Positions 6,301-16,800 of a stretch of 22,733 bases of DNA are shown here, piece by piece. The notes under the pieces are model-generated. The model did not search any database. It saw only the letters and a program-made list of their open reading frames with translations, and was not told where the DNA came from. Numbering within the stretch: the stretch's first letter is position 1; each line of letters opens with the position of its first letter. Origin of the DNA: a virus; IMG/VR virus record IMGVR_UViG_3300023210_000242, positions 1 to 22,733 of that record. One strand, written 5' to 3'. Both the position numbers and the translations under genes were made by a program.

Positions 6301-8055
6301 ATCAGAAAAACTATTTATCCTATCATTTACAGAACGACCCCCTTGAGATCCTGCATCGAGCAACCATTGAGTATTTGAACCACCTGCACCACCTTCTAAT
6401 TCTCTTTGATAATTTTCTTTTGTTTCGGCTTTTTGTTTTTTTACTGCAAATGACAAAGTAGGAAATTCTTCTTCCATATAATTCCTAAGCTCATCTATTG
6501 CAATAGCAGGTTTTAAATCTATTTTATCTACATCACCATTTAAAAAAGGATTCTTTCCTTCATTCTTAATTTCGTATTCAAGAACTTGTTTGTTTACATT
6601 TTGCAAATCAACTTCAGCTAAATAGTTTTTTAGGTAATCATACTTTAATTTCTCAGCTGCCAAAGTTGGATTATAGTTTCCAGAATAGTCGTAATATCTT
6701 CCATCTTCAGATATTGTTTCGTTTTCTAGCAACTTAGCATATCTTTCTTTAAATCCGTTTTCTATTAAATAGCCATTAAATCCAGATATGTCAATTTTAT
6801 TACCATCACCTGATAGCTTTTTTAAAGTTTGCTGGTCATACATTTTTCCTAAAACATCATCTTCAAAACCTGTTGGTTCATAATCTGAGTTTTCAAAAAT
6901 CTCAAACTCTTCATCAGTATAAGCTCCATCTTCTCTTTGAAATATAGACTGAAGTTTTTCAACGCTAGCATCAGGGCCTGCTAATTCTACAAGCCTTGCC
7001 GTTTCTGCATCAAAGTCTTTAACTTTTTTAATTATAGCATTTCTTTTTTCTTTTTCTTCAGGAGTGTAACTAAAGTTTTTTACATCAGAATATTGAGAAT
7101 ATTCTTTTTGTTTTTCTTCTTGCAGTTTTAATGCATTGTCTTTAATTGACTTTACAGAAACTTCTTGTAGTTTTTCAATAGATTTTTTATTTCCTTTTAA
7201 TGCAGAGTTTATATCTGATTGCTTTACATATCCTATAGCTAATGCTTTTTGAATATTAGGATCAGCTTCTATTTTTAATTTTAATTGTTCATCTATAGGT
7301 AAATCTAAAAACTCACCTTTAGTTTCAATAGCTCTGTCTGTTTTTGTGAATGTTATACTTCCCTCTCCTCTTTCTCGATTGGGATTTGTTGCTTTTTCAA
7401 ACAAAGAACTAAGGTCATCTTTTAATAGATTTTTGTTTTTTCTAGAATCATATCTTTCTTTCCATGAACCTTCACCATAGGCAAATGCAGATTCTTTATC
7501 TGTTCCAAAATCAGCAACCTCTCCTCTTTTTTTAGCTTCTTCGTAAACAGATTCCCAATCTGATTCTGCCTGCTCAGACATGTCAACAAATTCTCCGTCT
7601 TCATTTTGAAATACTGTAGGGAAAGAAAACCAATTTTCTCCATCAAAAGTTTCGGTTTTCATTTTGTGCGTAGATACACTTCCATCGTCATTTAATTGAA
7701 CACCTTTTCTATTTGGTGCGTCAATGTTTATATTGAATTCTTCCTCAACTTCTACTTCTAAACCATCCGAAAATCCAGGAGTTGTTTCCGTCTCTGTAGT
7801 GGATTCCGTAACGACCTCGTTTGAAGTGGAAGGAGTATCGACTTGATTTTTTTTTTCAGAAGTAGCTATTCCAACATTTGTTCTCCAAGTTTCAATGTCG
7901 CTTTTTGTATACTTCTTATCTGTAAGATAAGCATGCACATTGTCTTGTATTTCTTCACTACCTGAAAAATTTGATTTCCAAGTTTCAAAATCACTTTTGG
8001 TTGCGCCATCATTAGTTAGCGTGTTCCATATGTTTTTAAGAATTTCTTCGTCCAT
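343..8055 (-). CDS. giant virion/ejection-type protein (large polyvalent-protein-like), 2570 aa
   Basis: Probably a virion-packaged protein that is ejected with the DNA or occupies the capsid lumen, as T7 gp16 or crAss cargo proteins do; this is inferred from size, position and sequence. Order seen: two short repeats around residues 8-62, each ending in an SDxETWxxN motif; an acidic Thr/Glu linker; a module at about 120-200 with SVSTHKM, WFSFPTVFQNEDG and AFAYGEGSWK, of a kind I know from other large phage virion proteins; helical regions; Ala/Gly/Ser-rich hydrophobic stretches near 685-760 and 890-905; a Thr/Glu/Gln spacer at about 1112-1155; a duplicated helical unit at 1262-1346; then long helical sequence. 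A hydrophobic segment at about 2325-2341 (MSLYVVMYKALASMF) could be membrane-active. I found no lysozyme, transglycosylase, protease or RNA polymerase (DxDxD) motif. ATG at 8053-8055, preceded by an A/T-rich leader with no Shine-Dalgarno sequence. Last gene of the minus-strand operon. Confidence 0.75.
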   Translation of the reverse strand: MDEEILKNIWNTLTNDGATKSDFETWKSNFSGSEEIQDNVHAYLTDKKYTKSDIETWRTNVGIATSEKKNQVDTPSTSNEVVTESTTETETTPGFSDGLEVEVEEEFNINIDAPNRKGVQLNDDGSVSTHKMKTETFDGENWFSFPTVFQNEDGEFVDMSEQAESDWESVYEEAKKRGEVADFGTDKESAFAYGEGSWKERYDSRKNKNLLKDDLSSLFEKATNPNRERGEGSITFTKTDRAIETKGEFLDLPIDEQLKLKIEADPNIQKALAIGYVKQSDINSALKGNKKSIEKLQEVSVKSIKDNALKLQEEKQKEYSQYSDVKNFSYTPEEKEKRNAIIKKVKDFDAETARLVELAGPDASVEKLQSIFQREDGAYTDEEFEIFENSDYEPTGFEDDVLGKMYDQQTLKKLSGDGNKIDISGFNGYLIENGFKERYAKLLENETISEDGRYYDYSGNYNPTLAAEKLKYDYLKNYLAEVDLQNVNKQVLEYEIKNEGKNPFLNGDVDKIDLKPAIAIDELRNYMEEEFPTLSFAVKKQKAETKENYQRELEGGAGGSNTQWLLDAGSQGGRSVNDRINSFSDWTYDWLGMESVTDEIQMNQAETELNRDDMLRYTYASGKSAFANGREYMIDDNGEIYDLDLKIRVSSVLEPEQIKEIRKQVQLNGVDVSSFSGTGATVTTAGVASDMLLQIALTRGVGIAGQSARGIAFASKYKQGRQVVSLLEKVPMRASTASAMIAQGTLMSSSLSSQVRKSALDAGLSNEEADLLASEAATQGYALGVLTAPISTQRVAMDKIFGTKVKQKIVENTINRYAQGAGIEASRSYLRKTLDGVIRNVPVYLTEGGKEFFQENIQQGAQAYIIGSDINEQAGEQIMKETISLDDFANTSIISLSAGILMPVAGDVKANTTRSFSMTGRGGKAIDQMKSLALLASNVKKTQSLLDSQVKRGIYTQQQADNLMSDVKIFNETINGLPSNLSAETSLQVMSDLNKIKELESEKKVSEVFSPYLDVQIQDLKNNIIQNSNFDFVNNKSKQKLMDDAGRELVAEKEAAGEQNYKINNTEIRSRAVQNFNKLSMEEKQALAFPVETANNAALEKDKESKTVGKETEVGLTEVGEGDVESDTTQQTETESETQTDQTADTTTQTDTELLKPNSPDSAGRYENYSSDKVEVNISAQNDQGQPSARKNTDYRFEVRVNTNQGGQMTRSNALTKSFKTSKEAKAYAEKIAANDAAKTNQTSTQPSSAKKGMSVNNDNKVESFANRLVDGESNQEFSDEAQQFYAENQAEIDALVTKKRKDTPKDKSKTRRLATKIANGETNFSNEQIDLYAANEAEVKAEVEAIAKTNSQTVTADTYKGILQSIKSTTRTDKAKQEGENTQRKRFWKAWNKANREGKQDLKTKRKDLNKQIKIYSKGKKGTITAAQTKAVINKVNSVNLDNQVAVQELIEYSEKVFNDADYAAKLLKAEKLNNRVTTRLNKGDYGLNPDLISRLGTILNTPTKNLTSENIDGYNDFLSNLLKQKQNLKLDDQLVIDSQNMADSLYNENIQDTDEETETKENKTLKTIVDKIINEDVDGETLISEDSKFIENDLDKLDSFTLQTLIDKINSAETDENQELVEAANKFAENRQAIITKIKSRSRGISLKSLDNTTKEAGGVQVFQNIKDSDLIGLTGKQLDLLEVSLENINNGHYTHAANKLGQSINSRAYDMRPLVDKYGTTKNKIAMVKSRAEASLKAGLKNATKRGANSTTSLELLRTNPLSAVDNAFGNYKNNTIRNNSFEPIATKYSQFKTWSGRLTDKLDAVEQIIAPTYKEGTNPAVRRRFEIQTYLLALESESNVGNKGVAEANEFIDKTIENFNNSRTKSNYTQADIDILLDIKAKNSEGGVITTKKMKQNLSPQVMKAIGIMQEIYGALGDKQAYATTIVRGNKLDLLNNYVHHKVDATTDKLDQQLISQKNYINPQTSTESKTSISRTPGAKAIDFDPVATALRALRMAGMDYYLTNEIQTSRKALTQLTKLSEQDNATKEVIEATVSLSRAYDESINKVLSSNFSTDVIGGKWFDSARKIGYYSTLASAPRAVAELGSNLTFGLMSAPKELALGLGKYSNLSLMQNGLSFAENVGSTTVTKNWGSEILGGSKSENAGVVRNKKGSKRASGSNAKSTVQYAARFGKKFADGSEFLADNLLSTPDKMISRPLFFGTFAKVFKQETGQDMDADKISKNDEAYMTKYADAIQAAKRAADAKVTQAATSNDPFSGVLKNQLSDQDGARMILYKSINSYMARFTINEFVTARQAVASMVGQGEMGAIKGGATLAGIMTRMSLYVVMYKALASMFNGVLGLDDEDDIDYEELTTRQLAGAGVSLITRGTTGNFPMIGVNLAIEKLNEEYGEELGLWSDKDGKGYNPYIHSLIFSVINQQKLEKEGVAESAIRIGAGPLAPQASSLLRMGDLLAKMGSKNKKVADRAAAEFMTLRTALEASQFTGVPLPLYKDIRRYMMAQNWSDIKDSKQQDLKLSDEDFKIIYGERELKKRKDRKSKARKQQKNSPAGRKIKKLEDELKNLDF
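4018..4272 (-). repeat. Duplicated helical unit in the giant protein (residues 1262-1298 and 1311-1346)
   Basis: ESFANRLVDGESNQEFSDEA with following YAENQAEIDALV aligns with RRLATKIANGETNFSNEQID and YAANEAEVKAEV. The shared pattern is A-x-[RK]-[LI]-x-x-G-E-[ST]-N, then FS-[DN]-E, then YA-x-N-x-AE-[IV]. A basic KKRKDTPKDKSK linker separates the two copies. This is diverged intragenic duplication, seen at protein level. Confidence 0.75.
4590..4722 (-). other. Thr/Glu/Gln/Asp low-complexity spacer in the giant protein
   Basis: About 45 residues (roughly 1112-1155) made almost only of Thr, Glu, Gln, Asp, Ser and Val, for example DTTQQTETESETQTDQ. It is probably disordered. It divides an N-terminal part of about 1100 residues from a C-terminal part of about 1400. 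The antisense frame (4619-4876) looks like a Ser/Val-rich hydrophobic protein but is only the mirror of this composition. Confidence 0.75.
7870..8034 (-). repeat. N-terminal protein repeat in the giant protein (two units, residues 8-62)
   Basis: Two diverged units of about 25 residues: the first contains LTNDGATKSDFETWKSNF, the second contains LTDKKYTKSDIETWRTNV. Shared positions are LT, TKSD, ETW and N. They precede an acidic linker, which suggests a small anchoring or packaging domain; that role is inference. Confidence 0.7.
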
Positions 8056-8067
8056 TATAAAAGTTAT

Positions 8068-9999
8068 TTATCCAACATTTGGTGTTGATTCTGTTGTGCC
8101 TTGAGGCTTCTCACCTCTCAATACTTTATCCATATTTTCTTCAAGCCATGCGTGATTTTTCCTGCTTATTTGTCCTGGACTTGCGTAATCTACACCATCT
8201 ACTGTAATTATATATCTGTCAAATATACTGTTATCAACATCATCAAATCGTACTGATATATTTGAGTCAATATCATATTCTTGTACGGCTTTTTGTATTA
8301 TAGTATTTGCTACACCAACAACTTCATTTTCTTCAGGATTATTCTTTATTGCATTAGCAAAAGTTTCAGCAGCAGTACCTGCTCTTTTTATACCATTCTC
8401 TTCCGAAACTCCTATATTAAAAGCACCTAAGCCTCCATACTCTTTTGTTACGGTTTTATACTTACCTTCTGTACCGCCTGCTTTTTTGTTAGTACCCTTT
8501 AATTTAGATTTATCAAAATATCTTTGAGCTTTTAATTGTAGTTGTGCCGCAATTTGCTTACCTGCATCTACACCTAAACCTGATAATGGTATAGGGGCCA
8601 TGTTGTTTCCATCAGCATCTATAAACACTAATTCCATATCTTCTCCTGCACCTATAATATTATAAGCTGATATTTTGTCTGAATTCTCAGCAACTAAAGC
8701 CTTTAAACTTGAGGCATCACCTGTAGCTGCAAGGTCGATAAGATCTACTGAGGCTTGGAAGTCTTTTTCTTCATCACCTGACTTAATTGAAGCAGCACTT
8801 CTTTGGAACTCACTTTTTTTATCTCCTTTTTTTATTTTTCTTTGCAATCCTGCAACTAAACTTCTTCTATTATAACCTTTAACAGCTTCTATTTGTTCTT
8901 CTGTCATTTCTGGAACAATAGCATTGTTTGAGTTTGCAGCTGCAATCCTAGAATATTTAGGAACAGTAACTTTTTTTGCTTCTAGATTCTCATCTAATAT
9001 ATCAACTGTAAATGTCTCCTTTTTTTGAGCATCTGTTAAATTATCGTAGTCAGTAAAAGAAACTAGCTTACCTCCCATTCCGTTTTCACTAGTGAACAAA
9101 CTGGCTACATGCTCTATATTTGTTGTGTTGGCTGCTACTTGATTATTGACGCTTGCTTTTATATCTGGATTATTTCTAGAGTCAGTAATAACATTTCCTA
9201 CCATTAGTCCATCCTTAACCATTATCTCATAATTAGTTCCAACTGCACTATTAGCAAAATCCTGAACTTGGTCAGTAATATATATCCTATCAGCTCTTGT
9301 ATTTGCTTTGTGCTTAAGAGCCAAAACACTCATTCCACTTTGTCCGTCTATATAAATTGGGTTACCGTCTTTATCTAATTTACGAACTAAAGTTTTAGTT
9401 TTCTCGTCAACTTCCATTTTATAAAAATCAACTATACCCATGCCTTTATCATCAAAATTAACATCAACACCAGCTAACGTACCTATTTGAGTTTGTATCT
9501 GTTGCTTAATAGCTTCTAATTCACCAGATTGTGGCTTAACAAAAATTTGTTCTCCTTTATCATTAGTAATATATTTTCCTTTTGCTCTTTCTTCAGTAAT
9601 ATCTATTTCATCTCCAAATGTTTTAACAAAATCAGATAAAATTTCAAAAGTTTGTTTTCCGTTTTCTTGGAATATTAAATTTTCTTCAGGAGGAACATTT
9701 CCATTTCTTACAAGTTTTTCGCTTATAAATGCATCCTCTTTAAATTTAGCCAAAGATTCAACCATTTTAGCTGCAGCTGTATCATTACTAGGCATGTTCT
9801 CGGCAGCATACTTCTCAGCTTCACGAATTGATTTTGCAGTGGTTTTTTTAAGGTCAAGACGTTGCTTATCTATATTAGCTTTCCAATCTTGTACATCTTT
9901 TATTCCTTTATCTATAGCCGCAAACTTTGATTCAAGTGGATTTCCTCCAATTAAACCCTTGTCTAATGCCGCTATAGTTCCTTGTAATGCGTTACCCAT
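8068..9999 (-). CDS. probable internal virion/structural protein, 643 aa
   Basis: I do not recognise a named family. The protein begins MGNALQGTIAALDKGL and has a helical, Lys/Glu-rich first 110 residues (DVQDWKANIDKQRLDLKK), then a mixed region with short beta-like stretches (for example GVDVNFDDKGMGIVDFYKM), a helical middle part, and an acidic C-terminal domain (about 520-640) with RFDDVDNSIFDRYIITVDG followed by YASPGQISRKNHAWLEEN. It has no cysteines, no signal peptide and no clear membrane helix. It sits 11 bases downstream of the Ala-rich protein and 12 bases upstream of the giant protein, a slot that holds internal virion or ejection proteins in podovirus-like modules. Role is inferred from position only. 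ATG at 9997-9999; the leader is A/T-rich. Confidence 0.65.
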   Translation of the reverse strand: MGNALQGTIAALDKGLIGGNPLESKFAAIDKGIKDVQDWKANIDKQRLDLKKTTAKSIREAEKYAAENMPSNDTAAAKMVESLAKFKEDAFISEKLVRNGNVPPEENLIFQENGKQTFEILSDFVKTFGDEIDITEERAKGKYITNDKGEQIFVKPQSGELEAIKQQIQTQIGTLAGVDVNFDDKGMGIVDFYKMEVDEKTKTLVRKLDKDGNPIYIDGQSGMSVLALKHKANTRADRIYITDQVQDFANSAVGTNYEIMVKDGLMVGNVITDSRNNPDIKASVNNQVAANTTNIEHVASLFTSENGMGGKLVSFTDYDNLTDAQKKETFTVDILDENLEAKKVTVPKYSRIAAANSNNAIVPEMTEEQIEAVKGYNRRSLVAGLQRKIKKGDKKSEFQRSAASIKSGDEEKDFQASVDLIDLAATGDASSLKALVAENSDKISAYNIIGAGEDMELVFIDADGNNMAPIPLSGLGVDAGKQIAAQLQLKAQRYFDKSKLKGTNKKAGGTEGKYKTVTKEYGGLGAFNIGVSEENGIKRAGTAAETFANAIKNNPEENEVVGVANTIIQKAVQEYDIDSNISVRFDDVDNSIFDRYIITVDGVDYASPGQISRKNHAWLEENMDKVLRGEKPQGTTESTPNVG

Positions 10000-10010
10000 A
10001 ATTTAATGCT

Positions 10011-10940
10011 TTATTTACCTACCTTAATTTGTCCTGCTGCGACTGCTGCTGCTATCTCTTCTGGAGTCATATTTGCTATCTGCTCTGGAGTTAAACCTGA
10101 AGCCGCTTGAGGCTGTCCAAATGAAGCTATATCTCCAGCTGCTGATTTTATACCTCCAAGAGCAGTAGTCAGAGCGCCTCCAACAGCGGTAAGACCCTCT
10201 CCAAATGAAGTTTTACCATACCCTTCAGTTCCAAAACCTTCCAAAGTTCCTGCTCTACCTATTTGTCTCATTTGTTTACCTGAAAGCTCACCTCCAGGTT
10301 GTGTTGCTTTAAAAGAGTCAAATAATTTTTGACCTTCTTTACCGCCTCCTAGTCCTTCAACTGCCTTTCCTTCTGCGCCTCCAAAAGCACCTATCCCTGC
10401 GGTTAAAGCGCTAGTTCCTGCACTTATAAAAGCGCCTGTTGCTGCTGCCTCTAATTGATTTGCTTCATTTCTCTTAGCGTCAGCTTCTAATCCTGCTGCT
10501 GCTGCCCTATCATCTTGTAAAGCTGAAATTCTAGCTGCATCCATTTCAGACGCTGCCGCACGTTTCATATCAATGTCTAATTTTTGCACCGCAAATTTAT
10601 CAGCAATTTGTCCTGTCCCAATATCCTGGACTTGTTTTACTTTTCCTGCAGTTGCCGCAACACCTCTTTGATCCCCTTCTTGAGCTGCTTCTAATATCTG
10701 AGAACCCTGCACATTTGAAAGCTGAAGTTGTTTATCGTAAATATCTGTAGTTGCTCTAATTGCATCATAGAAATTTTGCTCTAATCTAGCTACGGACTCT
10801 TGCTCTAATTCTTCCTGCTTAATTTCTAATCTACCTGCTTCTCTTGCTGCTTCTTTGGCTGCGCTCTGTGCCATGAAACCTTTTGCTGCTTGACCTCCTA
10901 CAGCTATTGTTGCTGCTGCTATTGATGTAAATGCTGCCAT
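10011..10940 (-). CDS. Ala-rich internal virion protein (T7 gp14-like in composition and position), 309 aa
   Basis: Likely a virion protein stored near the portal and ejected with DNA. Visible features: an N-terminal Ala-rich hydrophobic stretch (about residues 4-25); a charged coiled-coil-like helix around 28-60 (EAGRLEIKQEELEQESVARL); a long Ala/Asp helix at 115-165; a second hydrophobic Ala/Gly segment at 164-188 (GAFISAGTSALTAGIGAFGG) that could enter a membrane; a Gly-rich region at 190-270; and a C-terminal TPEQI/TPEEI pair at 284-296 before a short basic end. Small Ala-rich proteins like this next to larger internal proteins are typical of T7-like ejection sets, but I see no specific sequence signature, so the assignment is by composition and place. 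It starts 1 base after the GNAT stop codon, so the two genes are probably translated from one message. Confidence 0.65.
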   Translation of the reverse strand: MAAFTSIAAATIAVGGQAAKGFMAQSAAKEAAREAGRLEIKQEELEQESVARLEQNFYDAIRATTDIYDKQLQLSNVQGSQILEAAQEGDQRGVAATAGKVKQVQDIGTGQIADKFAVQKLDIDMKRAAASEMDAARISALQDDRAAAAGLEADAKRNEANQLEAAATGAFISAGTSALTAGIGAFGGAEGKAVEGLGGGKEGQKLFDSFKATQPGGELSGKQMRQIGRAGTLEGFGTEGYGKTSFGEGLTAVGGALTTALGGIKSAAGDIASFGQPQAASGLTPEQIANMTPEEIAAAVAAGQIKVGK

Positions 10941-11372: not shown

Positions 11373-12155
11373 CTAAGGATTACTTTTGAATACTTGAGAA
11401 TCTACAGTAAACAGTTCTACAGCAGATGTGTTGTCGTTTGTTACTTTAAATTCCATGTAATATCCTGTAGCTCCATAAGACTCAGCAACAGGGTCTTTAA
11501 GCACTAATATATATGCATTATTAGGTATTGTAGATCCAATAGGCAAGAAATTTGATGCATCAACCGTTAACGTTTTTCTATCACTACTAATTGAAGTTAT
11601 AGGACCTACAGCTACAGGTGAGCTGAAGTTGTTAGGAGCAGAAATAAGAGTACTAAAATTTAACTCATCACCTATAGATATTATTCTAGATATTGGAGTG
11701 CTAAATTCAACCGTAATTATACCAGTTGACGCACCTGTTGAAGAAAGTAATTTACCTATTCCTTGTGTAGATCTTAACGCTAAGTTCTCTGTACCTGATA
11801 TTCTTTTAATGTAAGCAAAGAAGCTACCCTCTTTCTTTACGAAATCTGCCTGAGGCATAAAACCTGCTCCCAAATCAGTTACTAAACTTATATCCCATGA
11901 GTCGTCACTCTCTAATTCAATTGTTTTAAAAACTTTAACAGTAGTAGGTTCTTGATTAAAAACACCTGTAAGGGTTGTATCATAATCAACTCCATAATAG
12001 TTGTTACGTCTTTCATTGGTGTTATGTCTGTATAAATTTCCACCTTTAAAGGTATATAAATACTGATTCATTCCTAATATAAAATCAGGGAAGTAGCTAT
12101 AAAAAGAAGGCCATCCCTTTACTGATTCACTATATGTTACTGTGTAATTTTCCAT
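11373..12155 (-). CDS. tail protein resembling the C-terminal part of muzzle/tail-tubular-B-type proteins, 260 aa
   Basis: Probable virion tail protein. The N-terminal motif SESVKGWPSFYSYFPDF, then YTFKGGNLYRHN, YYGVDYDTTLTGVFNQEP and KTIELESDDSWD, is a pattern I recognise from tail proteins of marine and crAss-like phages. It is usually found in or next to the very large beta-propeller-like tail protein. Residues about 143-221 form a beta-rich insert (GDELNFST, ITSISSDRKTLTVDASNF). The end, GYYMEFKVTNDNTSAVELFT, also matches remembered C-termini of such tail proteins. It may therefore be the detached C-terminal domain of the 1524-residue protein encoded upstream. No signal peptide and no Cys. 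Start ATG is preceded by an A-rich AAAAAATAAAAT leader. Function inferred from pattern and context. Confidence 0.7.
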   Translation of the reverse strand: MENYTVTYSESVKGWPSFYSYFPDFILGMNQYLYTFKGGNLYRHNTNERRNNYYGVDYDTTLTGVFNQEPTTVKVFKTIELESDDSWDISLVTDLGAGFMPQADFVKKEGSFFAYIKRISGTENLALRSTQGIGKLLSSTGASTGIITVEFSTPISRIISIGDELNFSTLISAPNNFSSPVAVGPITSISSDRKTLTVDASNFLPIGSTIPNNAYILVLKDPVAESYGATGYYMEFKVTNDNTSAVELFTVDSQVFKSNP

Positions 12156-12165
12156 ATTTTATTTT

Positions 12166-13872
12166 TTAAGTTGGTGGTGCGCAAGTTGTTATAGCGCTCA
12201 CAACTCCGTTTGTTACTGTAATATATTGACCGTTATCCATTATATAGTTTTGGTCTGTAGCTCTAGTCACTCCATCATGGTCTAAGAAAATAGGATTGTT
12301 TAGAGCAGGATAAACATTGACTGCATTCTGAAATCTTGCAAAGAAAAAAGTTCCTGTTGCAGATTGACAGAAAGTACTAGAACCAATAGCATTAGACGTA
12401 AAGCTAGGTAAAGCCGCAGGACATTCTACTGACAAGTTCCATCCTGTACTTGCACATGGACCTAAAACCTCTATAGAGACAGTACCTGGTGATGCGTTTG
12501 GCTTAGGTATAACCATAAGGTTAAATTGAGATTGACCTCCTCTAATATCATCTCCTGTATTAATTGTTATACTTCGAGTAGAAGGGGTGTCTGCTATCCA
12601 TCCATTTGAGTCATAGCCATTAAAAGCGTTATAAACAGATGTATTAGGTGTAGCTGGAACACAGTTGTCTGTAGGGTCTCCTAGTATAGTAAAGGCATTT
12701 GCCACACCACTAGTAGACTGTAAGTTTCCATCTGAAACGCTTGATAGTCTATTGTAAAAAACACCATCATATAATACTCTTATTCCGTCAGGAATACTAG
12801 CAGGGTTAAAATAAATAAGAATAGCTCCAGTATCTGACACTGTAGTTCCTGCATCTATATCTAATTGATATACACCTCTTGAACCTGCAGGTGGTGTCAA
12901 AGTTCCTCCACATGGAAGTCCTGCTGGAGTACATGTTCCAGTAGCTATAACAATACCATACTGTATTTCAATATATGTATTGTCAGCTAATATTACAAAC
13001 TGACTAGTTGCAGTATTGTTTATCGCATTTACAGCTCCACCATCTAGGAATACATAGTTCCCAATCCCTGGAGTAGTAAGTGTTTCAGGCACAAACACAG
13101 TTGGTAGAATTGATGTAACGGTTGCATTTTGTGCAAAATAATAAGTTACTGTGGCATCAGCGCATGTGTCATCTATCTGAACTGGAGACCCTAAAAAACT
13201 ATCTAGCTGAATAGGACAGTCTGTTTGAAAAGAAAAAAATGTTCCTTGTATAGGAGCATAATAATCAATATTAAGAACACTAGCGCTTGATATGTCTTTA
13301 GGTATAACCTGAGTATACACTCTTGTTCCACCGCCTCTTAAATCAAGCTGATTAGAGTTGACTGTAATAGCTTGAGAAGTTCCAGAAGACACATATGTTC
13401 CATCTGTTTGTATGTTATAAACAAGAATTGGTGGCGTGGTCGATGGTGTATTTTGATTTGATCCATAATAAGTTGGCTGTCCAGATGGGGTATTAAGTCC
13501 AACAGGACCTTGGTTATTTCCTATATATGTAAGTTGATTATATGTCTGTCCGTTATATGTAGATAGAACGCCATCTGGAATTTGACCTCCAACAATAGAA
13601 TAAACAATTACAGCTCCAACATCTGTCCCTCCACTTATTTCTGCTAAAAAAGTGCCTCTTATATCTGAAGATTCTCCTGCGATTTCTCCACAAGGCAAAG
13701 CACAAGCAGGGCATATTATTTCAGGTGAAAGAAACCCTCCTACTTGCTCTCTATATATACCATTAAACTGATAGAACCCATCTGGAGATTTAATCAATAA
13801 ATTAACATCATCGTAAACAGATATTGCTGTTGCGAAGTTTTCAGAATCAATAAATTTATTTACTACACTCAT
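12166..13872 (-). CDS. tail fibre/adhesin-like protein with tandem internal duplication, 568 aa
   Basis: Likely surface-exposed virion protein, perhaps receptor-binding. It has an N-terminal piece (1-53, with DDVNLLIKSPDGFYQFNGIY) followed by two homologous beta-rich units. Unit 1 runs from CPACALPCG (54) to about 313, and unit 2 from CTPAGLPCG (314) to the end. Matching landmarks in both units are LPCG, a RG-[TV] strand, IPDG with a following YNGQTYNQL or YDGVFYNRL, an [DI]-RGG turn, VIPK, a CP or ECP motif, and a closing stretch that places Cys before a Pro-containing end. The composition is Thr/Ser/Asn/Gly-rich with paired cysteines, typical of extracellular adhesin-type domains. It lies 22 bases downstream of the large tail protein and 10 bases upstream of the 260-residue tail protein. 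I recognise no enzymatic motif (no depolymerase signature). Start ATG lies in an A-tract leader. Confidence 0.7.
   Translation of the reverse strand: MSVVNKFIDSENFATAISVYDDVNLLIKSPDGFYQFNGIYREQVGGFLSPEIICPACALPCGEIAGESSDIRGTFLAEISGGTDVGAVIVYSIVGGQIPDGVLSTYNGQTYNQLTYIGNNQGPVGLNTPSGQPTYYGSNQNTPSTTPPILVYNIQTDGTYVSSGTSQAITVNSNQLDLRGGGTRVYTQVIPKDISSASVLNIDYYAPIQGTFFSFQTDCPIQLDSFLGSPVQIDDTCADATVTYYFAQNATVTSILPTVFVPETLTTPGIGNYVFLDGGAVNAINNTATSQFVILADNTYIEIQYGIVIATGTCTPAGLPCGGTLTPPAGSRGVYQLDIDAGTTVSDTGAILIYFNPASIPDGIRVLYDGVFYNRLSSVSDGNLQSTSGVANAFTILGDPTDNCVPATPNTSVYNAFNGYDSNGWIADTPSTRSITINTGDDIRGGQSQFNLMVIPKPNASPGTVSIEVLGPCASTGWNLSVECPAALPSFTSNAIGSSTFCQSATGTFFFARFQNAVNVYPALNNPIFLDHDGVTRATDQNYIMDNGQYITVTNGVVSAITTCAPPT
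12169..13713 (-). repeat. Two tandem ~255-260-residue units in the fibre-like protein
   Basis: Unit 1 covers about 13713-12934 and unit 2 about 12933-12169. Identity is visible only at protein level and is concentrated in landmarks (LPCG, IPDG, Y-N/D-G-x-x-Y-N-x-L, RGG, VIPK, Cys-Pro), so the duplication is old or under rapid change. Unit 2 carries Cys pairs in the same places as unit 1. Confidence 0.75.
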
Positions 13873-13894: not shown

Positions 13895-16800
13895 TTAACA
13901 CGTACCTAAATCGTTTAGCGTTTCATTTGTTGATATTATTTCTATAGCACAAAACTCTTCACCTTGACAAATTGGGCTGCTGCATTGACGAAATATAGTT
14001 TGCTGGTCTCCATCACAATCAATATATGTAATTTGTAAAGTACTGTCATAAGGTATACTTCTATATCTATTACAAACTGGTGGAGGCGGTGGACCTCCAG
14101 TACATCCACAACAAGAATCTAAAGCGGTAACATCATAACATAACTCTATAGGTGTAGGGGTTTTTAAATCCCAAACTAAATACAAATAAGTATTAGCTGT
14201 GTTATAAATGAATTGAGCCTCGTAATTTTCAGGACCTCCTGAAATTGGAGTTGCTGTATTTAATAATGGAAGTAATACATCAATATCTACTTCATCGTAA
14301 TTTGTATTAGTTGATAGGTATTTTAGTTTTCCTGCATTAGGATTAAACTCATAAGTTTGACCTGCATTTTGTCTAATCTGCATAATAACAGTAGATCCTT
14401 CAGGAGGTAAAGCTCCAAAAGAAGCAGGGCCAGTTGACTCTGTAAATAAAGAAACACCATCTGATTCTAAAACAACAGAATTAGTGCTGTAAGGACTTAA
14501 ATAAGATCCTTGTGTCCACCTGTATCTTACATCTGTAGTTAAAGTAGCGTCTCCTTCAAAATTTACAACTATTTCTTTAACTGTTACGTCTGGAGCTATT
14601 GGACATTCAAAATTAATATCATAGTCAGAAACAACAATTGGTGTAGTGGTCACTTCCACATATCTAGGGCTGTTTTGTGTTTTATTAAAAGAAACACTAC
14701 CTATCCCTGAGACATCTTGATTTATAACTTCAGTTCCATTCCATATAGCAGTTATATTTACTTGACCATTTACGTTATATGAAAAAGGTATTGTACCTAT
14801 TACAGTAGTACAATCAAGGTTTAGTGTATAAGGATCTTCTCCATTTGTTACTGTTAACACATATCCGCACTGTTTTTCTTCTGGTGGCTGAGGTATAATT
14901 TGTGTATTAGAGCTTAAAACATATTCATTCATGTATGGATCGTATCCACCTAGTTTTTGAGTTTCAAAAGAAGTTGTAAATAAGTCTCTAAACCAAGAAC
15001 GCATTCCTACTGTAGATATTACATTTAATTGGTCTGTTTTAGCAGATCCTCCTTTTAATTCTATTACTGAACTTCTTTTTGAGTCCGTAAAATAAACATT
15101 ATAACCATAAGAAGTAAAACTCTCTGGATTACTACTTATTCCATACTCTTCAATTCTAGCTAATTGAGTACCAAGAACCTCAGGTACTGATGTTATAGCT
15201 CCACCTGCTGCTGCATCAGAAAGTAAGTTTTTACCTACTAACAAATAAGATATCTTATCTTCTTGAAGAGTTAAGATGTCTGTCTGTCTTGAATGCATTT
15301 TTCTAATCGGTCCGTATGATGTTTCTAATGTTTTAAAATTAGCTAAAGCCAGGTTAAATTGATTTAACTTATTTAAGTTAGTTTCTTGATTAAAAACTCC
15401 ACTATAAGTTACATCAGCAAACCTATGACTTTCTTTGTATTGTTCTTCTGAAACAGATGTTACTTTTTCTCCAAGTTGTATAAATGGTTTTGTAAGTCCA
15501 GATAAAACATGATTCTCTTCCGCTCCATTTCCAAAAGAATAAGAATTAAAAAAAGTTAAATCAACAATAGCAGGGTTTGTTAAAGTTTGGTCTTGGTCAG
15601 CATCTGAGTTTCCTGACAAATGAAGTCCATTTACAATGTCAAATGTCTGTTCATTTTCATAATACAATTCATCATTTGCATCTAATGGCTCAGTTTCAAA
15701 AATAGTTAAAGTAGATGCTCTTTCTACTTGAAGATTAATGCTAGCATAAGAATTTCTTGGTCTAAAACCACCACATCTAGGAGTTCCTGATTGATAGCAA
15801 AATCTTAAAGGCGATGTTGGAGTAGCTTGCTGAAATCCTACATAACTATTACCTGTTGTTGCTAATCGATCCTCAAAAATCTTTATATCATCATACTGAA
15901 TTTGATTATTTTGAGCATCATCATCACTACCTGATGAAATTCCATTTGTAAAATCAATATTATCTCCTAACACCCAATCATGTAAACTATCATAATCATT
16001 TGAAGATATAAATTTTTTGCTCCAATCATAATATCTACTTCCACATCCTCCACCTCGACTATATCTAGTAGCATTAATGGTTATCTCTATAAGAGAACCT
16101 GCTGGAACAGTCCATGGAATATAGTCCCCAGGATTATCCTCATCTTCAATAGAGCATGAAACATTAACTAAAGGCTTATCTCTGCTGCCTCCATCACTAG
16201 ACTCTTCTATTCTAGAATTTGGCGGTTTATTTGCCGCAAAGTTAGAGGGCTTTACTAACATGTAAGTCCCTGTTGGCTGACCACATTCTTGTGATCCTGG
16301 CAAAATATCTCCGTCAATATTTTTTTCACAAAGAAAATCTTTAGCCTCAGATCCAAAACCTAAAACTTTTGTTGTAGCGCAATTTAAAACAGGGCCATTT
16401 GTATCTGCTTTGATGTATAACACATCGTTATCTTTTACCTTGTCCCTATTGTCTCCCTGAAGCAAATAGTAAGCGTCTCCTGTCTCTTCTTCTCTAAAGA
16501 ATATATTGCTGTATATTGTTCTGTAAAGTCCCTTAGACTCTTTAATTACGAATTTATATTTTGTAGCCCAATAAGGAGGGTAGCTATTCATTTGAACCCT
16601 AATACTGTTTTTGTCAACTGAATTAAAGCAGGGAATAAAAATAGTATTATCTCTATCAACTAGGGCAGTACTACTTCTTCCATAGTCATCCATATATACA
16701 ACACCTATTTCATAATCTCTGTTACTGTGTAAACTTTGCTTTGATCCATCTAATGCATAAAAACCTTCTGCAGAAACACAGCTTATATATTCATAAGCAA

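Follow-up and report, generated by a model that had tools for sequence, protein, structure and literature searches.

A candidate modular receptor-binding protein encoded within the muzzle gene block of a crassvirus-related phage

Results

Organisation of the muzzle gene block

The stretch of viral DNA analysed here (hereafter, the window) comprises 22,733 nucleotides of IMG/VR record IMGVR_UViG_3300023210_000242 and, like its nearest relatives, is a metagenomic fragment. No tRNA or RNA family was found in it. The gene for P0001, a candidate receptor-binding protein or adhesin of 568 aa, runs on the minus strand as an open frame from 13872 to 12166, and the plus strand there is full of stop codons. 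It is flanked by the genes for the muzzle protein P0002 (13895–18469, minus strand, 1524 aa) and for P0003, a separate muzzle C-terminal domain protein (hereafter, MUZC; 11373–12155, minus strand, 260 aa). P0002 matched phrog_14478 (4e-233), and P0003 matched Pfam family PF25729 (crAss_MUZ_C) with 53.4 bits against a cut-off of 27.

P0002 consists of a core (residues 1 to ~1195), colinear with phi38:1 gp097, and a C-terminal extension of ~325 aa (from position ~14869 down). In phi38:1 gp097 and the homologues from Calle_1 and elemo, the muzzle core and MUZC form a single chain with little or no insert; the P0002 profile stops at model position ~1181–1183, and the P0003 profile resumes 5–19 residues later in the same chain. 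The alignment across this junction was clean (...GGYDPYMNEYVLSSN followed by YTVTYSESVKGWPSFYSY of P0003, versus ...GAFDLRDKEYVMHEK followed by GVFTTAYSNLVTGYPSFYSF in the single chain). Therefore, compared with these phages, the last ~325 residues of P0002 together with all of P0001 constitute an insertion at one site of the muzzle. The sequence pattern and the published domain plan (PMC10172136) suggest that this site would lie in a hairpin loop of the muzzle beta-propeller. Because a search of the PDB with the P0002 profile did not recover a solved crAss001 muzzle at the sequence level, the name muzzle is based on PF25729, the PHROGs matches and colinearity, and P0002 itself is called a putative muzzle by colinearity. 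Whereas the crassvirus-type muzzle is a single polypeptide, that of the window is split into P0002 and P0003.

The order muzzle, P0001 homologue and MUZC was found in nearly all loci, and the position between the muzzle and MUZC genes is referred to below as the slot. Several features of the neighbouring genes were also recorded. Small Cys-rich domains that follow a CCxC motif form the end of the muzzle extension (13898–14869, minus strand); they vary between relatives, and the 2013-aa muzzles of L027 and L031 are an example of differing extensions. P0003 covers only positions 197–460 of phrog_38031 (460 positions), the first ~196 of which may correspond to slot content fused to MUZC elsewhere. 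P0007 (10942–11352, minus strand, 136 aa) is acetyltransferase-like, with a match to phrog_17252 and a weak one to the acetyltransferase phrog_1758, and in most relatives, as well as in phi13:2 (gp122), its homologue directly follows MUZC.

Two-unit architecture of P0001

Iterated profiles resolved P0001 into an N-terminal anchor followed by domains A, B, A and B. The anchor occupies residues 1–53 (13714–13872, minus strand). Unit 1 (residues 54–313) comprises a domain A of residues 54–220 (13213–13713; profile match 2e-61) and a domain B of residues 221–313 (12934–13212; 4e-35), and unit 2 (residues 314–568) comprises a domain A of residues 314–485 (12418–12933; 4e-76) and a domain B of residues 486–568 (12169–12417; 3e-34), all on the minus strand. 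Domain A is ~170 aa long with Cys-Pro at its end, and domain B is ~85 aa long with a Cys near its end, giving two-domain units of ~255 aa.

A sequence-only reading of this DNA had proposed two tandem adhesin-like units of one family, and this was borne out when the two halves were compared. BLASTP aligned them with 77 of 265 residues identical (29%; 87 bits, E = 5e-25), and their Smith–Waterman score of 267 far exceeded those of 2,000 shuffles (mean 43, SD 8, maximum 79). The landmarks that it had listed as common to both units in the same order were all found in register: CPACALPCG in unit 1 with CTPAGLPCG in unit 2, YNGQTYNQL with YDGVFYNRL, IPDG, RGG and VIPK in both, and DCP with ECP. The span that it had assigned to the protein, 12169–13713, matches both units exactly (residues 54–568) but omits the 53-residue anchor; likewise, its repeat of ~257 residues is real, although each unit is made of two different domains rather than one.

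Predicted structure and family searches

The AlphaFold2 model of unit 2, based on 64 aligned units and spanning both of its domains, was all beta with a pLDDT of 94.3 and a pTM of 0.91. Units 1 and 2 are homologous in sequence and are therefore expected to share this fold. The model of the whole of P0001 had a pLDDT of 87.0 and a pTM of 0.55, a low value as expected for well-folded units in a flexible arrangement. In a Foldseek search against solved structures, nothing matched at E ≤ 0.001, adhesins and lectins included; weak partial fold matches below this limit (a P-domain, a collagen-binding domain and carbohydrate-binding modules) prove nothing. Fourteen viral models, mostly nameless, passed E ≤ 0.001.

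No family covering P0001 was found in Pfam (E ≤ 1) or PHROGs. Members of A and B gave isolated weak Pfam matches only and no BACON domain, and sequence searches for solved structures in the PDB gave nothing convincing. The domain A alignment touched phrog_13374 and phrog_20698, both without an assigned function. Thus, the expectation that known depolymerase or collar domains would be absent held in Pfam, PHROGs and PDB searches.

Possible relationships among the domains were also compared. Domain A may be related to an Ig-like domain of the muzzle extension (probability 77–79%, E ~2e-5), which is suggestive only. The comparison of domain A with domain B was negative. The anchor resembles a short B domain in its motifs, yet hhalign gave E = 0.002 and a probability of 15%, and such a relationship is not claimed. 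Variable positions showed no significant concentration in loops (p = 0.07 and 0.16).

Slot contents in related phages

Relatives of P0001 were found at 36 viral-contig loci among the matches listed. Because the collection scans kept the best 80 matches each, and MUZC occurred in at least 599 stretches, how often each architecture occurs here does not estimate its frequency in the group as a whole. The slot holds one gene starting with the anchor in nearly all loci, and the anchor occurs once per phage record (six records). The commonest content is the anchor with one unit; others have two units, and L007 has three. The L009 protein carries two units and another C-terminal domain, those of L144 and L156 combine the anchor with an unrelated short module, and that of phage ctfjg026 joins the anchor to an unrelated part of ~125 residues. 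The anchor is thus retained amid differing contents (ctfjg026 L039, L144, L161 and L166). The proposal of a repeat that changes in copy number and divergence agrees with this comparison, in which one, two or three units of differing kinds were found.

Some loci depart from these arrangements. The slot proteins of L161, L166 and L175 contain two or three anchor-like repeats in place of A–B units. L112 has two adjoining slot genes (8575–10756) of 414 and 306 aa with one A–B unit each. Although the L034 slot has the usual length, its gene (7785–8525) reads only to 247 aa and encodes an A but no B domain, which points to a frameshift or sequencing error. The muzzle C-terminus carries B domains beside a normal slot gene in L074, L087, L092 and L097.

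In five loci (L067, L182, L183, L184 and L191), the anchor and A–B units continue in frame from the muzzle. Similarly, the L158 muzzle is fused to the short module, lacking an A domain, that L144 and L156 encode separately; the L156 muzzle terminates in ...NEVDACCDCAP, the L156 slot gene reads, from the second Met, MSLVNKYINSDNF..., and L158 is continuous and free of stops (...NEVDACCSCFEVNKYINSDNF...). In phi13:2 (Pachyviridae; host Cellulophaga baltica), the muzzle homologue gp120 has a C-terminal A domain (E = 9e-36), and MUZC is the separate protein gp121. The fusion of slot modules to the muzzle in these relatives is indirect but good evidence for attachment of the separate protein to the muzzle.

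Descent and exchange of units

A maximum-likelihood tree of 85 A domains included several long branches that leave the deep order unsure. A weakly supported branch (68/18) separated off the first units of multi-unit arrays, within a well-supported larger group that adds one muzzle-fused unit and two last units. Last units required at least five changes on the tree, and unit 2 of the window nested among those of single-unit phages. Since first units group apart from unit 2 of the window, the array was probably assembled from unit lineages long since separated. A recent tandem duplication as the source of the two units of the window was rejected, as the tree places them in different lineages.

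Comparisons between loci showed abrupt changes in identity within the slot gene. L008 and L009 are 98–100% identical in muzzle, anchor, unit 1, MUZC and the GNAT gene, with second A domains only 37% identical; likewise, the second A domains of L011 and L018 are 35% identical, against 97–99% (aa) for MCP, muzzle, anchor, unit 1 and MUZC. The reverse was found for L007 and L011, whose muzzles and anchors are 44% and 27% identical and whose second A domains are 99% identical in DNA, and for the window and L002 (muzzles 43%, anchors 23%; second A domains 91% in aa and 93% in nt). Identity switches at P0001 residues ~285–318, and the breakpoints fall in a conserved junction patch of ~90 bp (12919–13008, minus strand; residues 289–318). 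Between two lineage groups, the patch is 82–94% identical in nt, whereas their anchors reach only 40–58%, and third codon positions of identical residues in the patch agree in 82–85% of cases. The units thus behave as exchange cassettes, with the terminal unit replaced by exchange. A finer difference separates the window from L005: of 17 differences in 20,565 bp, 13 cluster in one 269-bp stretch that reaches from the end of the anchor to halfway through unit 1, and almost all of these fall in unit 1.

In 57 non-redundant loci, the identity of the anchor correlated with that of the muzzle (rho 0.73) and of MUZC (0.80), and the identity of the last A domain did so less strongly (0.47 for both); each rank correlation was significant by permutation, and the contrast between them is descriptive only. 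Possible agents of exchange or diversification were also sought. RecT was not found, and no reverse transcriptase (RVT_1) of a diversity-generating retroelement was present in six records of 51–62 kb and uncertain completeness.

Discussion

Proposed function of P0001

P0001 is probably a modular receptor-binding protein located at the tail-tip muzzle, and we hold this view with some confidence. As in other proteins of this class, the anchor follows the phage backbone, the C-terminal module is exchanged, and the gene is encoded with those for tail-tip proteins. Receptor binding at the muzzle tip would be the simplest reading of its position, modularity, exchange and tandem arrangement. The phage is of a marine Bacteroidetes type and appears to be related to the flavobacterial Pachyviridae and Pervagoviridae and, more distantly, to crassviruses. 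The 53-residue N-terminus of P0001 would dock on the muzzle at the insertion between the ancestral core and the C-terminal domain, and the one to three A–B units would extend away from it to bind a structure on the cell surface, which is probably a glycan. The main route to altered specificity would be homologous exchange at the conserved unit-boundary patch, by which terminal units are swapped whole, with the gain or loss of units as another; a change in host range through the number or kind of units is plausible. The sequence-only reading had called the protein fibre-like. Its adhesin-like character agrees with our results, but the gene sits in the muzzle block and is fused to the muzzle in relatives, leaving a stand-alone fibre unsupported.

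In crAss001, the ring proteins R1 and R2 provide the interface to the tail-fibre docking hubs, and phi13:2 is reported to have only an R3/R4 ring-protein homologue (PMC10172136). If the ring proteins of the window phage are as in phi13:2, the slot protein may serve as its principal adhesin. In the annotated parts of ctfjg026, no further gene is named tail fibre; many genes there are nameless, so this observation carries little weight.

The preferred reading has to be weighed against three others. P0001 might decorate or stabilise the muzzle, adding bulk or reach instead of specificity, with its variation being neutral or an escape from an anti-phage surface factor. The in-cis fusions, the location within the muzzle gene block, the lack of a recognisable lectin site and the variability not being concentrated in loops would all suit such a role. 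However, the replacement of whole units amid near-identical flanks and the sharing of terminal units across lineages form the pattern expected of specificity modules, and it is the anchor rather than the unit that tracks the muzzle; we consider a purely structural role unlikely. An enzyme acting on capsule or another surface glycan, similar to a depolymerase, is still less probable. Some tail-tip proteins are enzymes, and the slot protein of ctfjg026 is annotated as a 'putative glycosidase', but that protein has only the ~53-aa anchor in common with P0001. No enzyme family, depolymerase and lyase domains included, was matched in Pfam or PHROGs, and the beta-strand model had no solved match at E ≤ 1e-3. 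Moreover, in the 64 units compared, the invariant positions are occupied by Gly, Pro, Cys, Ala and Leu, and a conserved acid pair is lacking.

The swaps and changes in unit number could also be artefacts of metagenome assembly, with mixed strains joined into chimeras. Every near relative is a metagenomic contig, an assembler could switch at the conserved unit-junction patches, and the swap cases resting on one contig each (L007, L008, L009 and L018) could be chimeric. As a general explanation, this is very improbable, because several variants recur in contigs from different samples (L002/L003/L004, L010/L014, L011/L013 and L015/L016/L017) and the same architectures occur in divergent lineages. 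A receptor-binding protein with exchangeable units remains the reading that we favour.

As a tentative extension, to which we give slightly less than an even chance, the muzzle insertion site might be a general docking slot in a large, marine Bacteroidetes-type phage group. One beta-hairpin loop of the ancestral muzzle would have opened to take up adhesin modules, and a later break in the chain would explain why the same modules now occur either in cis or in trans. Conserved ~90-bp patches would act as standing recombination sites for their shuffling.

Implications and comparison with known systems

Our results point to one defined gene slot, holding an anchor followed by exchangeable units, as a candidate site of host recognition in crassvirus-related phages. 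This slot can be read from metagenomes and could be used to group phages by predicted receptor type, and the loci described here form a natural series of near-isogenic phages differing in the slot. The cis and trans forms of the split muzzle would represent an unusual route for adding specificity modules.

The muzzle of PhicrAss001, gp44 (Bayfield et al. 2023, PMC10172136), offers the nearest structural reference, as P0003 matches the family of its C-terminal domain (PF25729). Muzzle length is reported to vary by insertions, which are placed in the crass and IG2 domain regions (PMC10172136). Unlike gp44, the muzzle of the window consists of two chains, and an adhesin cassette occupies the single site of the break. 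Cellulophaga phage phi13:2 resembles the window in having a muzzle homologue with an A domain (gp120) and a separate MUZC (gp121); it differs in that the A domain is single, lacks a B domain and is fused to the muzzle, without a separate adhesin gene.

Tandem repeats of BACON domains in crAss-like phages evolve as single domains are duplicated and transferred horizontally (de Jonge et al. 2019, PMC6949934). They share with P0001 the tandem adhesin-type beta domains, the tail-region protein and the occurrence in Bacteroidetes phages. In contrast, P0001 has no BACON match, and its ~255-aa, two-domain units are encoded within the muzzle block, where near-identical phages exchange them at a conserved patch. 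Modular receptor-binding proteins such as those of Klebsiella phages (PMC8262889) likewise combine a conserved N-terminal anchor with exchangeable C-terminal modules. P0001 differs from these in lacking a recognisable enzyme domain and in carrying several candidate specificity modules in tandem, and its modules are found either fused to the tail-tip protein (in cis) or separate from it (in trans).
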